Positions 17,266 through 34,900 of a DNA stretch of 64,000 nucleotides are shown in pieces. This DNA is from Clostridia bacterium (GTDB lineage: Bacteria > Bacillota > Clostridia > Saccharofermentanales > Saccharofermentanaceae): positions 1 to 64,000 of the forward strand of contig JAKSRE010000003.1 of the NCBI GenBank assembly GCA_024403775.1. The letters run 5' to 3'. Under the pieces are notes generated by a model, which saw nothing but the letters and a program-made list of their open reading frames with translations, searched no databases and was not told the origin of the DNA. A program made the translations under genes and the position numbers. Every line of letters starts with the position of its first letter. Positions within the stretch are counted from its first letter, which is position 1.

Positions 17266-17874
17266 TCATGCCCAAGCGTCTGTATCTTCCAGGTAAGATA
17301 CTATTGCATTTCTCAAAGAATCCATACCAATCTTACGTTCTGATGATACTGGAAAAATTGAGGCATCATCACCAAAATTAAATTCTTCATTCAACTCTCT
17401 AAGTCTGTTATTTAACTGCTGTCTTGAGAATTTATCACATTTGGTAAAAATAACGAAATATGGAATATTGTTGTTATTCATATATTCGAGCATACCAATA
17501 TCTTCTTCAGATGGCTCATGGCGAATATCAATAAGATGAAGAACAAGATTAAACTTTCGTCCAGAAGTAAAATATGAATCAGCCAGCTGTGAGAACTGAG
17601 CTTTTACATCCTTAGAAGCTTTTGCGTAGCCATAGCCAGGAAGATCAGCAAATAAGAGCTTACGGTCACAGTTAAAGTAGATAACAGCTCTTGTTTTACC
17701 TGGTGTCTGAGATACTCTAGCAAGCTTTTTATTGTCAGCAAGTCCGTTAATAAGTGAGGATTTACCTACATTTGATTTACCTGAAAGAACAACTTCAGGA
17801 AGACCAATATTAGGACATCCGTCAACTGAAGCGGCTGTAGTGAAGTATTGTGTATTTCTAAAATTAACCTGCAT
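17266..17874 (-). CDS. engB: Ribosome biogenesis GTPase YsxC/EngB
   Basis: EngB is an essential small GTPase needed for late 50S subunit assembly. The 202-residue protein shows G1 GKSNVGKSSL, G2 threonine in TPGKTR, G3 DLPGYGYA and G4 TKCDK. The length is typical. A good ribosome binding site (TTAAGGAG) precedes ATG 17874. The gene diverges from comEC, and the shared 89-bp region contains the four-box TGTCG element, which could therefore influence both genes. Confidence 0.96.
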   Translation of the reverse strand: MQVNFRNTQYFTTAASVDGCPNIGLPEVVLSGKSNVGKSSLINGLADNKKLARVSQTPGKTRAVIYFNCDRKLLFADLPGYGYAKASKDVKAQFSQLADSYFTSGRKFNLVLHLIDIRHEPSEEDIGMLEYMNNNNIPYFVIFTKCDKFSRQQLNNRLRELNEEFNFGDDASIFPVSSERKIGMDSLRNAIVSYLEDTDAWA

Positions 17875-17894: not shown

Positions 17895-17928
17895 TGTCGT
17901 TTTTGTCGTAATTTGTCGTATTTTGTCG
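17895..17928 (+). promoter_or_regulatory. Four tandem TGTCG boxes upstream of comEC (copy 1 of 2)
   Basis: TGTCG starts at 17895, 17904, 17914 and 17924, giving spacings of 9, 10 and 10 bp (about one helical turn). The boxes read TGTCGTT, TGTCGTA, TGTCGTA and TGTCGAG. The same 34-bp layout recurs at 32101-32134 with two substitutions. The core and phasing resemble tandem Spo0A boxes (TGNCGAA), such as those of the B. subtilis abrB promoter. The last box ends 35 bp before the comEC start, so it probably overlaps the -35 region of the promoter. Confidence 0.8.
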
Positions 17929-17963
17929 AGTTCTATTGTATCAGAAAGAATTAAAATTTACTC

Positions 17964-20270
17964 ATGAATACCCAAATGATTAATGAATTTTTTAAGAGAA
18001 TATCTTATAGACCACTATTGTTGCCAGTGATTTTTCTGATAATTTCTGGTATGGGTGAGTATTATTTATTTATAAAGTGGGGTACAAGACTGTCAATTAT
18101 CTATTCATCGGTTTTGATTGTTTTGTTATTATTTTTTTGCATATATACCTTAGTAAAAAGGCTGGATTCTAAAATAACTTTTGCAGCAATACTTACTCTG
18201 TCGCTTGTTATTTATTCAACATGTATCTATCAAAATCGATTTTTTCTTGGCGAAAGCAGCGGTATAAAACTATCAGATGATATAGTCTACGATTTTACGA
18301 TAACAGACATTGAATACAAATTGGATGGAAAAATTAGATATTATGCTTTTAGCGATAAATTTGGAAAAGTAATTATTTATAATACTGATGAATTAGTTGA
18401 TTTAGGTATAAAAACTTTATGTAAGATATCTTTAAAGGGAAAACTTTTAGTTCCTTCAGAAGGTACTAATCCAGGTGAATTTAATAATAAAGAATACTTA
18501 AATAAACAAGGGATATTCTATATTTTTAAGCCACAGTCAGTAGTATCAATTAAAGACAATAACAATCCTTTGTATAATAGTTCGAGTACAATAAATTACC
18601 TGAACTTTAATCTTAGAAGTAAAATATATTCATTTTTGAATAAGTGTCTTGAGCCAGAAAATTCTGAATTATCTGGAGCAATTTTTCTTGGCGACAAAAG
18701 TGAATTAAGTGATGATGTTAAAAGGGATTTCAGACTATCGAACAGTTCTCATATTCTTGCATGTTCAGGTACGCATTTTACTGCGTTTTTGTTATTTGTT
18801 CCTGTTTTTCTGGATAAATACTGCAAAAGAAAGAAAACCAAGGTGGTAATATATTCGATTATTGCGACGATTATTGGCATTCTTACTGGATTTGGTAAGT
18901 CTGTAACGAGAGCTTATTTTATGAGTATTACCAGATTTTCAGGTCGTGAATCTATATCTGGTATCCTTTTTGCATTCATTATAATTGTACTAGTTAATCC
19001 ATTTGTTTTGTTTGATGGTGGCTTTCAGATGAGTTTTATGGTTAGTACATTTATCGTGCTTTTCGCAGACAGGAATATAGAAAATAATGGAATAGCTAGT
19101 TTTATAAAACTAACTTTTCTGGCATTAATCTCCATACTTCCATTTATGCTTACAACTGATTACTATCTAAATCCAGTCAACATTCTGGTTCAGCTGATTA
19201 ATAATACAATTCTTCTTGTAGCGTGTATTTTAATAATTCCATGTGCGTTACTAAGTGTTATTTCGGTTGCTTTTATTTGGCCAATTGATATGCTATTAAC
19301 TCTTATGAGGAAAATTGTAGTGTTTTCATCCAGCTTTTCGCTAATTACAATTAACCTTCGAATGATTTATTATCCATTACTGGTAAGCCTTTTTCTTGGT
19401 TTTATTGTATATAAGCTCCCAAAAGTTTATATAAAGAAATTTCTTATTAAATTTACCATACTAATTATCTCTTCTAGTTTGGGTGCTGCACTTGCTGAAT
19501 ATATTACTGCTCCTACATGTAAAGTAATCTTTGCTGATGTAGGACAGGGAGATTCTGCGCTAATAATAAGCGAGAAATATAATGCCATTATTGATGGAGG
19601 AGTGTATGAAGAAGGAGAGAAGACTTTATTTGATTTATTGGATTACTATCAGATTGATAGAATTGATTTTGCTATTATAACGCACCCTGATGGAGACCAT
19701 GGTGGTGGAATAGCGGCCCTTTATAACCTTGGGAGAGTTAAATCTATCTATTCTTCATACATTAAAGAAGATAAGATTATGGCACTTGGATTTGAGATTA
19801 TGCCAGATATTGTCCAGCTTGTTGAAGGATATAGTATTAAATTATCAAATAGTACGGTTCTTAAGGTGATTAGTCCATCTTATATAACTGATGGCGAGAA
19901 CGATGATAGTTTGGTTATCAGTTTAAATTGCTTTAATACATCAATTCTGTTTACAGGTGATATATCATCTTCTAGAGAGAATAAGCTGATAGAGAGTAGT
20001 CTTATAGACAAAGCTGATGTTTTAAAGGTCAGTCATCATGGAAGCCGATTTTCCACTTCTAGTGAATTTATAGCAACTGTTAATCCCAAGGAAGCTGTTA
20101 TCTCTGTTGGTAAATATAATAATTACGGTCATCCATCTGAAGAAGTGATTGAACGATTGAATGAAAGTGAAGTGGATATATATACCACTTGTGACTGTGG
20201 CGCAGTTATTGTGGACATTTACTATCATAAATATGAACTTTACGGCTATCTGGAAGAAAATAATGTATAA
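17964..20270 (+). CDS. comEC: ComEC/Rec2 DNA-uptake channel
   Basis: ComEC carries single-stranded DNA across the cytoplasmic membrane during natural transformation. The 768-residue protein has N-terminal membrane helices and an OB-like DUF4131 region. The Competence domain follows, with several helices from about residue 230 to 500 (SHILACSGTHF, GKSVTRAYFM). A C-terminal metallo-beta-lactamase domain (DVGQGDSALI, HPDGDHGGG, SHHGSRFS, GHPSEEV) completes the three-part architecture of functional ComEC. There is no good ribosome binding site before ATG 17964. holA follows after 28 bp, the usual comEC-holA pairing. The four-box element lies directly upstream. Confidence 0.95.
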   Translation: MNTQMINEFFKRISYRPLLLPVIFLIISGMGEYYLFIKWGTRLSIIYSSVLIVLLLFFCIYTLVKRLDSKITFAAILTLSLVIYSTCIYQNRFFLGESSGIKLSDDIVYDFTITDIEYKLDGKIRYYAFSDKFGKVIIYNTDELVDLGIKTLCKISLKGKLLVPSEGTNPGEFNNKEYLNKQGIFYIFKPQSVVSIKDNNNPLYNSSSTINYLNFNLRSKIYSFLNKCLEPENSELSGAIFLGDKSELSDDVKRDFRLSNSSHILACSGTHFTAFLLFVPVFLDKYCKRKKTKVVIYSIIATIIGILTGFGKSVTRAYFMSITRFSGRESISGILFAFIIIVLVNPFVLFDGGFQMSFMVSTFIVLFADRNIENNGIASFIKLTFLALISILPFMLTTDYYLNPVNILVQLINNTILLVACILIIPCALLSVISVAFIWPIDMLLTLMRKIVVFSSSFSLITINLRMIYYPLLVSLFLGFIVYKLPKVYIKKFLIKFTILIISSSLGAALAEYITAPTCKVIFADVGQGDSALIISEKYNAIIDGGVYEEGEKTLFDLLDYYQIDRIDFAIITHPDGDHGGGIAALYNLGRVKSIYSSYIKEDKIMALGFEIMPDIVQLVEGYSIKLSNSTVLKVISPSYITDGENDDSLVISLNCFNTSILFTGDISSSRENKLIESSLIDKADVLKVSHHGSRFSTSSEFIATVNPKEAVISVGKYNNYGHPSEEVIERLNESEVDIYTTCDCGAVIVDIYYHKYELYGYLEENNV

Positions 20271-32100: not shown

Positions 32101-32134
32101 TGTCGTTTATGTCGTAATTTGTCGGATTTTGTCG
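32101..32134 (+). promoter_or_regulatory. Four tandem TGTCG boxes upstream of the TadE-like operon (copy 2 of 2)
   Basis: TGTCG starts at 32101, 32110, 32120 and 32130, with the same 9/10/10 bp spacing as upstream of comEC. The 34 bp differ from copy 1 at only two positions, both outside the TGTCG cores except for the base after box 3. The last box extends to TTTTGTCGAA, a full match to the Spo0A box TGTCGAA. It lies 74 bp before the pseudopilin gene. Confidence 0.8.
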
Positions 32135-32151
32135 AACAAATAACAAATATT

Positions 32152-32197
32152 TCTCTGTATTCTGTTTTTATACCTTTAGGTAAATAGAATACAGGGA
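32152..32197 (+). promoter_or_regulatory. Leader hairpin enclosing the ribosome binding site of the first TadE-like gene
   Basis: CTGTATTCT at 32155-32163 pairs with AGAATACAG at 32186-32194. The stem extends by TCT/GGA-type pairs so that part of the GGGAG ribosome binding site (32194-32198) is base-paired. An inner TACC/GGTA stem (32171-32174/32179-32182) stacks inside. It is not followed by a good T-run at the stem, though Ts at 32202-32208 lie between the site and ATG. Confidence 0.55.
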
Positions 32198-32208: not shown

Positions 32209-32499
32209 ATGGGAAATTCAATAGAAGGTGCAATTGTATTTACTATGGTTCTCGGACTTATTACTTTTCTTGTAGTAGGACCATTTGAGATTGTTGTTAG
32301 GACAATTGAAGTTGAGCAGAAATACTATGAGAGGGTCGAAGATTATTCAGATAATGGTGATATTTATATCGAATCTGATCATGTGTCAACATCGGCAGAA
32401 AGGCTGTGTACAATCCTATCTGGCATATCTGACAGCTATAACATTATCTATGATGGAATCGTAAATTCTCTTGATTCATTTTCGGAAGAGGGTGATTAA
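32209..32499 (+). CDS. TadE-like pseudopilin / small pilus-associated membrane protein
   Basis: The 96-residue protein has a short N terminus, an N-terminal hydrophobic helix (about 7-30) with Glu6 near its start, and a polar, acidic outer part. This fits Tad/Flp-type pseudopilins, though the exact G-x4-E cleavage pattern is not matched (Gly2, Glu6). It lies immediately upstream (no gap, TAA then ATG) of a DUF5702 gene and a clearer TadE-like gene. The first gene of this operon sits behind the four-box element and an unusual leader hairpin. Confidence 0.55.
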   Translation: MGNSIEGAIVFTMVLGLITFLVVGPFEIVVRTIEVEQKYYERVEDYSDNGDIYIESDHVSTSAERLCTILSGISDSYNIIYDGIVNSLDSFSEEGD

Positions 32500-33891
32500 A
32501 TGAGAAGAAAATCCAAAAGAAGAGTAATAAGTAATAATAGAATTGGGGCAACAACTTTATTTCTAGCGATAATTCTTGCTGCAGTTATTTCTGTCGAAAG
32601 TACTTATCTTTACGCCAATATAATGGCAGACAGGAGAGTTCAGATTAACAGAGCACTTAAATCTCAGGTCGAAGTACTTCTAGGTGATTATGACAGAGAA
32701 TTATTCAGTGTTTACGGTATATATGGTTACTGTAAGGGTGAACTAGATGATACTGTTTTTAATAAAGTTTTAAGTAGTAATGGTATTGATCCGGAAGGTT
32801 ATCTGACAATCGGAAATTTTGCCAGCATATCCTCATCTGATATAAAAAAAGCAGTAGCTTCATACTATTCTTACCGTGGTGCTTCGATTGTAGCATCAGG
32901 ATTTACAGATGTAATTGTTGGTGCTTTGGAGGAATTTGAAGATGATTTTGTGTTATCCAAACTTAAAAGTCTTACTTCTGGTAAAGCTGCAACTCTTATT
33001 AATGAGGTTTTAAAGGGATCGGAAAGAATAAGTGAGATTTTATCTTCAGTCGATAATTTTACAGAACTAGATAATGCGGAATCTAAAATAAGTGATTATA
33101 TCGATTTGTTTTCAGACTACTCAAGTGCAAAAGAACATGCTCCAGAACTAGGAAATTCAATTAACCTTGGTGGAATTTCTAATCTTTTTAGTGTGTATGA
33201 AGGAATAGACGATTTTGCATCTATTGGAGAAAACGCAATGTCTGGTGCTTTGGGGCACATTCCGTTATGTCATTATGCCAGCTATAATTTTGATTCGAGA
33301 ATGGATAATGATTCTTCGATTAATGGTACTGCTTTCACTGATATTCATTATGACAATTATATGGATTCAGAGTACATTCTTACGGGATTATCTGGTTTTG
33401 CTTCTAAAGCCATAGTGAATTCTGATATATTTCTAATCTGTCTTTTGTCGGAGATTCTTCAGATAAGATTTGATTCAAAAACGATGGCAGTGATTAATGG
33501 AATTGCCGTCGTATTGGAAATAGTTATATCCATTCTTACTTTAGGTGTTGGTCTTGCAGTTCCTTTTGCTGCTTATAAAGCTCTTGTTGTTCTGATTTAT
33601 GGAATAGTTCTGGCAATTAATGATGTTAATGCTGTTCTCGTTGGAAAATCAGTTGAATTATTTGCAATTGATGGAGTTCCTTTTCTTGAAGATGGAATTT
33701 TGTGTTTTGAATACAGTGATTTTATTTTTACGATGATGCTGTTTCAAAGTGATGATAATATTTGTAGCCGTATATCTGAGGTTCTAGAAAGAGACTTTGG
33801 AACTATCGTTACTAATGTAGAACTTGCTTACGTAACTAATGATGATTTGTATTCTTATGAAGGGGGGTACTATCTATATGAACAAAGCTAA
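32500..33891 (+). CDS. DUF5702-type Tad pilus-associated protein
   Basis: The 463-residue protein has a basic N terminus and a pilin-like helix (about 17-40) with the IGATTLFLAIILA pattern. Gly16 is followed at +5 by Phe, as in DUF5702 proteins. After this come ADRRVQINRALKSQVEVLLGDYDRELFSVYGIYGY, a typical DUF5702 region split here into shorter segments, and a large extracellular part. A second hydrophobic region near residues 335-375 may be membrane-embedded. It probably contributes to a Tad-like surface apparatus whose ATPase and assembly proteins are not in this window. Confidence 0.6.
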   Translation: MRRKSKRRVISNNRIGATTLFLAIILAAVISVESTYLYANIMADRRVQINRALKSQVEVLLGDYDRELFSVYGIYGYCKGELDDTVFNKVLSSNGIDPEGYLTIGNFASISSSDIKKAVASYYSYRGASIVASGFTDVIVGALEEFEDDFVLSKLKSLTSGKAATLINEVLKGSERISEILSSVDNFTELDNAESKISDYIDLFSDYSSAKEHAPELGNSINLGGISNLFSVYEGIDDFASIGENAMSGALGHIPLCHYASYNFDSRMDNDSSINGTAFTDIHYDNYMDSEYILTGLSGFASKAIVNSDIFLICLLSEILQIRFDSKTMAVINGIAVVLEIVISILTLGVGLAVPFAAYKALVVLIYGIVLAINDVNAVLVGKSVELFAIDGVPFLEDGILCFEYSDFIFTMMLFQSDDNICSRISEVLERDFGTIVTNVELAYVTNDDLYSYEGGYYLYEQS

Positions 33892-34900
33892 ATATTTAAA
33901 ACGTAGAGCTGGCTCAATTGCATTAGAGGCAAGTATTGTTTTTACTATATTTCTAGCACTTGTGGTCTCGGTTATAACTTTTATAGATATTAAGAGAACT
34001 GATATTCTTATGCAAACTGCAGTTGATGAGACTTGTGAGAAACTTCAGATATTACCTCCGTTTAGAATACCGGTTCAGGATTTTACGAATACAGCTGTGA
34101 ATATTATTCCAGACGACATATATTCAGGTCTTGCAAGTAGTGAAGCACTAATGAATGTATTTGGTGGACTATATAAATTAGACAACATAGGTGAGGGAAG
34201 AATTGAAGATATCATTTTGTCTGTAGCATTTGGTAATCTGGTATCTGATGATATAGCTAATGAGTTTGTCATATTAAATGATAATTCTGATTATTTTATG
34301 CCTGATAGCATAAAGTCCACTTTCGAGATAAATAGAGATAGTAATTATATTGGACTTACTGTAACTTATTTAAAAAATACAATTGTCGGTTCTACAAAAA
34401 AACAAATCTATGCTGCAATACCCATGTATGGAGAATTCAATGTAAATATAGATGGAACAGGTATTGCTGAAGAAAATACAGATGATATATGGAGTAAGGA
34501 TAATTTTACCAGAGGTCTGGAGATAAGAAGAATTTTTGGTGCCAATCTTCCAAGTACTTATCCAGTTATTGATGCATATAATAACGGAACTGTAACTTCA
34601 ATTCTGTCCATTGATACAACTGCTCCTCATTATTCTAAAGCCGCTTCAATACTTGGTAAAGTCTATGGTGACATAAATGAACTTGCTGAATTTGAGGGTG
34701 CCGATGTCAGAATAAACGGTGAAAAATTTTGTATTAACAGAAGTGACATAGAAAGTCGTGAACTTATAATTGTAATTCCCGAAAATGATGAAAAATTTGA
34801 CGATATGTTGTGCAATGATATAATTGTTTACGGTCTGCAAAATGGTGTTAGTGTACATATTGAAATGTATGGAAATTCATATAAGTACATAGATGAGTAA
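33878..34900 (+). CDS. TadE-like minor pseudopilin
   Basis: From ATG 33878 (GGGGGG ribosome site 10 nt upstream; the earlier in-frame ATG at 33839 lies inside the previous gene) the 340-residue protein has a basic start. The class III signal AG-SIALEASIVF follows, with Gly12 at -1 and Glu17 at +5, then a hydrophobic helix. This is a textbook prepilin-peptidase (TadV/CpaA-type) substrate and matches TadE-like pseudopilins. The remainder is an extracellular domain of unknown fold, far larger than classic TadE. The start overlaps the DUF5702 gene by 14 bp. Confidence 0.7.
   Translation: MNKAKYLKRRAGSIALEASIVFTIFLALVVSVITFIDIKRTDILMQTAVDETCEKLQILPPFRIPVQDFTNTAVNIIPDDIYSGLASSEALMNVFGGLYKLDNIGEGRIEDIILSVAFGNLVSDDIANEFVILNDNSDYFMPDSIKSTFEINRDSNYIGLTVTYLKNTIVGSTKKQIYAAIPMYGEFNVNIDGTGIAEENTDDIWSKDNFTRGLEIRRIFGANLPSTYPVIDAYNNGTVTSILSIDTTAPHYSKAASILGKVYGDINELAEFEGADVRINGEKFCINRSDIESRELIIVIPENDEKFDDMLCNDIIVYGLQNGVSVHIEMYGNSYKYIDE

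Follow-up and report, generated by a model that had tools for sequence, protein, structure and literature searches.

The stretch of DNA analysed here (the window) comprises 64,000 nucleotides of a genome from Saccharofermentans, a genus of gut and rumen bacteria. A block of four TGTCG boxes lies between the gene for the DNA internalization channel ComEC/Rec2 and its divergent neighbor engB, and a second such block precedes an operon of pseudopilin-like genes. The features of the two loci are:

17266–17874, minus strand: engB/ysxC, divergent neighbor of comEC (TIGR03598, 196 bits)
17895–17928, plus strand: four-box TGTCG element, candidate activator operator, 5' of comEC (boxes at 17895, 17904, 17914 and 17924)
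17952–17957, plus strand: candidate -10 hexamer TAAAAT of comEC, 23 bp past the last box, with the ATG 6 nt later
17964–20270, plus strand: comEC (Pfam Competence, 8e-26; TIGR00361, 202.9 bits, above cut-off)
32101–32134, plus strand: second four-box element, 5' of the pseudopilin operon (boxes at 32101, 32110, 32120 and 32130)
32158–32163, plus strand: weak candidate -10 hexamer TATTCT of the pseudopilin operon, 23 bp past the last box
32209–32499, plus strand: first gene, small pseudopilin-like protein of 96 aa, with orthologs 3' of the element in relatives
32500–33891, plus strand: second gene, DUF5702-like/TadE-like surface protein (weak Pfam DUF5702 match)
33839–34900, plus strand: third gene, TadE-type pseudopilin N-terminus joined to a CdiA-CT DNase-like domain (Pfam PF21111, 2.9e-9; PDB 4g6u, 3.4e-4)

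The boxes upstream of comEC, spaced by 9, 10 and 10 bp, lie exactly where a first-pass annotation had placed them, and the recurrence of the 34-bp block that it had noticed was confirmed at 32101–32134, where 32 of 34 bases are identical (two differences). Two sites in the window match the four-box pattern perfectly, versus none in 100 dinucleotide shuffles of the window. Single 0A-type boxes (TTTGTCGWA, one mismatch allowed) occur at chance level, with 35 observed in the window against 32 expected, and thus only the arrays are meaningful.

Promoters carrying the element in the source genome and its relatives

In the 2.82-Mb assembly, the exact triple box TGTCG-N5-TGTCG-N5-TGTCG occurs at five sites, every one upstream of a gene and on that gene's strand, while the reversed-pattern control has no match. 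A double-box search added four further credible promoters, and a search with an 18-base pattern allowing up to three mismatches returned the same nine and only two weak sites besides. These nine promoters precede comEC, a Tad/Flp pilus operon, the pseudopilin operon, recA, four paralogous genes for probable nucleases and one gene for an unknown 217-aa protein; no comEA or comM of this genome lies under a strong site in the 18-base search. Outside the comEC and pseudopilin loci, the targets include the following (G, C and L numbers are our labels for genomes, contigs and loci; G000 is the source genome):

G000, C16:26833 (L015): recA promoter
G000, C2:35671, C2:84587, C11:46903 and C40:5243 (L012, L008, L009, L020): four paralogs of ~275 aa, all under TGTCG arrays
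G000, C78:13427 (L024): the 217-aa protein (family U217), under the element and with no Pfam match

Relatives of U217 occur in other genomes (L057, L241, L267). The Tad operon encodes a TadA ATPase, a TadB/C-like membrane protein, a Flp-type pilin (MKTLKNKKGMGTVEIVIIIAVLVGLALLF), an FHA/DUF6382 protein and a 318-aa protein labelled CpaE/TadZ-like from its position alone; together with the pseudopilins, and on that positional label, the Tad/Flp pilus set is complete. Its profile matches include T2SSE (4.7e-53) and T2SSF (6.3e-7), and TIGR03819 is the best match yet falls below its cut-off. The recA promoter features a TGTCG pair followed downstream by its own TTGACA-17-TACAAT promoter, and a LexA-like GAAC-N4-GTTCG site was read there by eye. 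A recombination gene recruited to competence would be expected to show such apparent double control. The first-pass annotation had also suggested that the element may control the divergent engB. Lying 20 bp from the engB start, on its upstream side, the element could affect that gene, but the analysis turned up no link between the two, and all assigned targets run the same way as their elements.

The match sets of eight relatives were compiled into 60 loci, leaving out one match at a contig end, and the downstream genes were classed with BLAST, profiles and visual inspection. The ~275-aa nuclease family is the commonest class (20 loci), followed by tad (7), comM (5), pseudopilin (5), Rpn nuclease (5), comEC (4), comEA (3), recA (3), U217 (2), toxin-antitoxin (2) and other genes (4). 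Thus 27 of the 60 loci precede comEC, comEA, comM, recA, Tad or pseudopilin genes, and another 25 lie before genes for nucleases. The comEA products feature SLBB and HhH domains and score over the TIGR00426 cut-off; those of comM/YifB score just below theirs. Some arrays in relatives precede HicAB/HigBA-like toxin-antitoxin genes (L052, L225, L258, L265), genes for tiny hydrophobic type I toxin-like proteins (L045, L240, L266) or Rpn nucleases (L236, L239, L242, L253, L263).

Of the 115 family genomes, 111 yielded ComEC itself, usually at ~35% identity. Most of the 30 genus loci inspected nevertheless carry TGTCG boxes in tandem in the interval from engB to comEC, an arrangement shared by several sister-genus members. 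The site has been conserved while the ComEC gene drifted. Across the family, the triple box is present in 67 of the 115 genomes and in two of five genera; outside the family only two genomes of the order match, and at class level few of 391. A scan of named genomes returned members of the genus and scattered matches in unrelated phyla, and a tblastn search of plasmids with ComEC gave no useful match. Two genomes from outside the family (G164, G283) contain element matches with no recognizable competence gene adjoining. In a genome from another order (G312; L382), four TGTCG boxes at 10-bp spacing precede a TadA homolog (45% identity, 2e-86), at least two of them with the 3' AA of a canonical 0A box, and a TATAAT lies 34 bp past the last; this is a single case.

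The first-pass annotation had expected a functional operator to recur before com, tad and DNA-processing genes and to be kept upstream of comEC in close relatives, and both patterns were found. The shared operator stands before comEC, comEA, recombination genes and pilus genes in relatives, and before comEC, recA and two pilus operons in the source genome. This concentration of matches before com, tad, recA, pseudopilin and nuclease genes makes us confident that the TGTCG element marks a natural-competence regulon, as far as promoter sequence and gene content can indicate.

A candidate Spo0A-like regulator and the promoter geometry

The first-pass annotation had likened the boxes to the 0A boxes bound by Spo0A. 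In part this parallel stood: the box core is that of a 0A box, and the genome encodes a single protein with the Spo0A_C domain (190 aa, G000:C45:37471-38040; PF08769, 29.2 bits against a cut-off of 25); 18 of 19 relatives match this profile as well. No canonical Spo0A was found in the lineage, and the compact protein's TIGR02875 score is far below cut-off. The ~75 residues before its Spo0A_C domain have no Pfam match to a receiver and fall short of the ~120 aa of that domain. The compact plan is similar in relatives across the order (ten examples read). A sensor histidine kinase gene (L030, 2173–3141) is a conserved neighbor of the Spo0A-like gene and holds the same place in relatives, even though the Spo0A-like protein itself lacks a full receiver.

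Profile searches of the PDB match the protein to Spo0A structures 1fc3 and 1lq1. Its AlphaFold model is confident in the C-terminal half only, and Spo0A chains occupy Foldseek ranks 1 to 6 (1lq1 first), with probabilities of 0.99–1.00 and E-values of only 0.015–0.24; identity to Spo0A over the domain is only ~17%. A 19-row alignment contains 14 invariant columns. Among these, E132, R133, R136 and Y137 fall in the predicted recognition helix, whose ERDVRYAI aligns with VERAIRHAI of the Spo0A helix. By solved-chain length, E132, R133 and R136 map to E213, R214 and R217 of Bacillus subtilis Spo0A, which we take to be base-contacting residues; a literature search returned no confirmation of that role. 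Spo0A contacts G2, C4 and G5 of TGTCGAA (PMC3485338). All exact matches keep these bases because the search pattern itself requires them; only some boxes retain the 3' AA, which is often absent (TGTCGGT, TGTCGTA). The boxes are arranged head to tail 10 bp apart, as in 0A-box operators: 91 distinct elements hold this register, 64 with three boxes, 23 with four and four with two.

A homolog of the Spo0A-like protein is present in 112 of the 115 family genomes. It is so nearly universal that co-occurrence cannot prove a link to the element, and the assignment rests on the box, the domain and the residues. Even profile searches did not detect it in G072, G081 and G086, of which G072 and G086 have many elements. 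We do not take these absences as a refutation: the conserved neighbors of the gene are likewise missing from the same three genomes, so the whole locus is probably absent from the assemblies through an assembly gap, and three absences are no more than incompleteness alone would give. Together, these comparisons suggest that the boxes are probably read by the compact Spo0A_C protein.

The same competence regulon could instead answer to another regulator that binds direct repeats, either of OmpR/PhoB type or an unrecognized one, with the Spo0A-like protein doing something else. TGTCG resembles the PhoB half-site TGTCA, Spo0A_C proteins also occur in genomes and genera that have no exact triple box, and our list of the genome's regulators is not exhaustive. 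However, half-sites of OmpR, PhoB and WalR usually repeat every 11 bp, whereas the register here is 10 bp and none of the 91 elements has an extra box 11 bp upstream. Moreover, the box matches the core of a 0A box, and the genome's only Spo0A_C protein keeps the Spo0A recognition residues. We thus regard a different regulator as unlikely, though deserving of consideration.

In 69 of the 91 elements, the best -10 hexamer begins 12/13, 23/24 or 34/35 bp past the last box, whereas 500 mononucleotide shuffles of the downstream sequences averaged 9.3 such elements and never exceeded 17, as scored with a matrix made for this analysis and with orthologous elements that are not independent of one another. 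Unrelated gene classes share these three peaks, which are spaced by one helical turn. Distances in whole helical turns suggest an activator facing RNA polymerase rather than a sigma factor. An alternative sigma factor with the TGTCG repeats as an extended -35 would account for elements just upstream of -10-like hexamers, but it sits poorly with a box to -10 distance that varies by turns (12, 23, 34 bp), with a box number that varies from two to four, and with a recA promoter whose own -35 and -10 lie downstream of the boxes; we consider it very improbable. Least probable of all is that the repeats are mobile or repetitive DNA without a regulatory function: although the same block recurs at several sites of one genome, only the boxes are shared while the flanks differ, the sites lie upstream of a few functional classes and are kept across species as the genes diverge, and the reversed control found nothing in 115, 188 and 391 genomes. 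Helical phasing and target specificity led us to reject both of these readings.

Two of the three comEA promoters, and roughly half of the nuclease promoters that were tested, show the same 6-nt distance from -10 to ATG as comEC, suggesting that the comEC, comEA and nuclease transcripts may be leaderless.

We infer that these bacteria take up DNA and that the Spo0A-like protein binds the boxes and activates transcription. In the proposed mechanism, a single compact Spo0A_C protein, a Spo0A derivative lacking a full receiver, would dock side by side on the 10-bp tandem boxes along one face of the helix. The bound array would end either beside the -35 region or one helical turn upstream of it, and RNA polymerase would be recruited to the weak promoters of comEC, comEA, comM, recA, the Tad/Flp pilus and pseudopilin operons, and the nucleases.

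The pseudopilin with a DNase-like domain and the probable nuclease paralogs

The true start of the third pseudopilin-operon gene, annotated from 33839, is probably at 33878. Catalytic residues of the Zn-dependent DNase CdiA-CT were taken from the literature (PMC9086364); in the alignment of six homologs, the catalytic Lys is kept in one and lost in five, and the Asp is kept in three. In the window's own protein the Lys has probably been lost. Given these losses, the CdiA-CT-like domain may bind DNA rather than cut it, and the product may be a candidate DNA-binding part of the pilus; we offer this as a lead, not a result.

The ~275-aa family features invariant residues E152, K167, D182, E197, G200 and Y207. 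Its best profile match is the nuclease Bax1, with a weaker one to T7 endonuclease I, and its structural model (pLDDT 90.8) retrieves weak Foldseek matches, several of which are restriction-endonuclease folds. These matches suggest that the family is probably an unnamed PD-(D/E)XK-like nuclease. The C-terminal part also shows similarity to PADLOC PDC-S68.

Combining these parts, we lean slightly towards a fuller model in which a receiver-less Spo0A descendant is the master activator of competence and drives a Tad-type uptake pilus with a DNase-derived, probably inactive, DNA-binding pseudopilin, along with PD-(D/E)XK nucleases; the link between box and tad may reach other orders of Clostridia.

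Implications and comparison with known systems

A literature search found no paper on genetic competence in Saccharofermentans. Our analysis predicts that this large gut genus can take up DNA, and names the operator, the genes and a testable candidate regulator. If correct, both halves of sporulation initiation, sigmaH elsewhere and Spo0A here, would have been turned to competence in bacteria with no known sporulation, and Tad-pilus transformation would extend to Firmicutes. For genetic work, a single small protein might suffice, once expressed, to render intractable rumen Clostridia transformable.

The closest parallel is Spo0A and its 0A boxes in Bacillus and Clostridioides, which share the TGTCG core including the G2, C4 and G5 that Spo0A contacts, tandem boxes 10 bp apart, the fold of the C-terminal domain (predicted here) and the recognition residues. 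Unlike Spo0A, the candidate regulator lacks a full receiver and therefore has no evident phosphorylation site; the promoters described here typically carry three to four boxes, often without the flanking AA, and the targets are genes of DNA uptake and recombination. The ComK regulon of Bacillus subtilis likewise places one regulator before comE-type genes, pilus genes and recA, whereas its K-boxes (AT boxes) and ComG-type pilus resemble neither the site nor the pilus found here. In non-sporulating Firmicutes, competence is controlled by sigmaH (PMC3364868, PMC3486894), and there too a factor known mainly for initiating sporulation is linked to com genes in hosts that form no spores; that factor is a sigma factor, while the element described here would be the operator of an activator that binds DNA in the manner of Spo0A. 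Micrococcus luteus is transformed by means of a Tad/Flp pilus (PMC4322843), and the gene content described here similarly suggests that Tad genes may provide the pilus for DNA uptake in a Gram-positive bacterium. The two differ in phylum and in regulation, since here tad and com share one operator, and here a pseudopilin carries a DNase-like domain.
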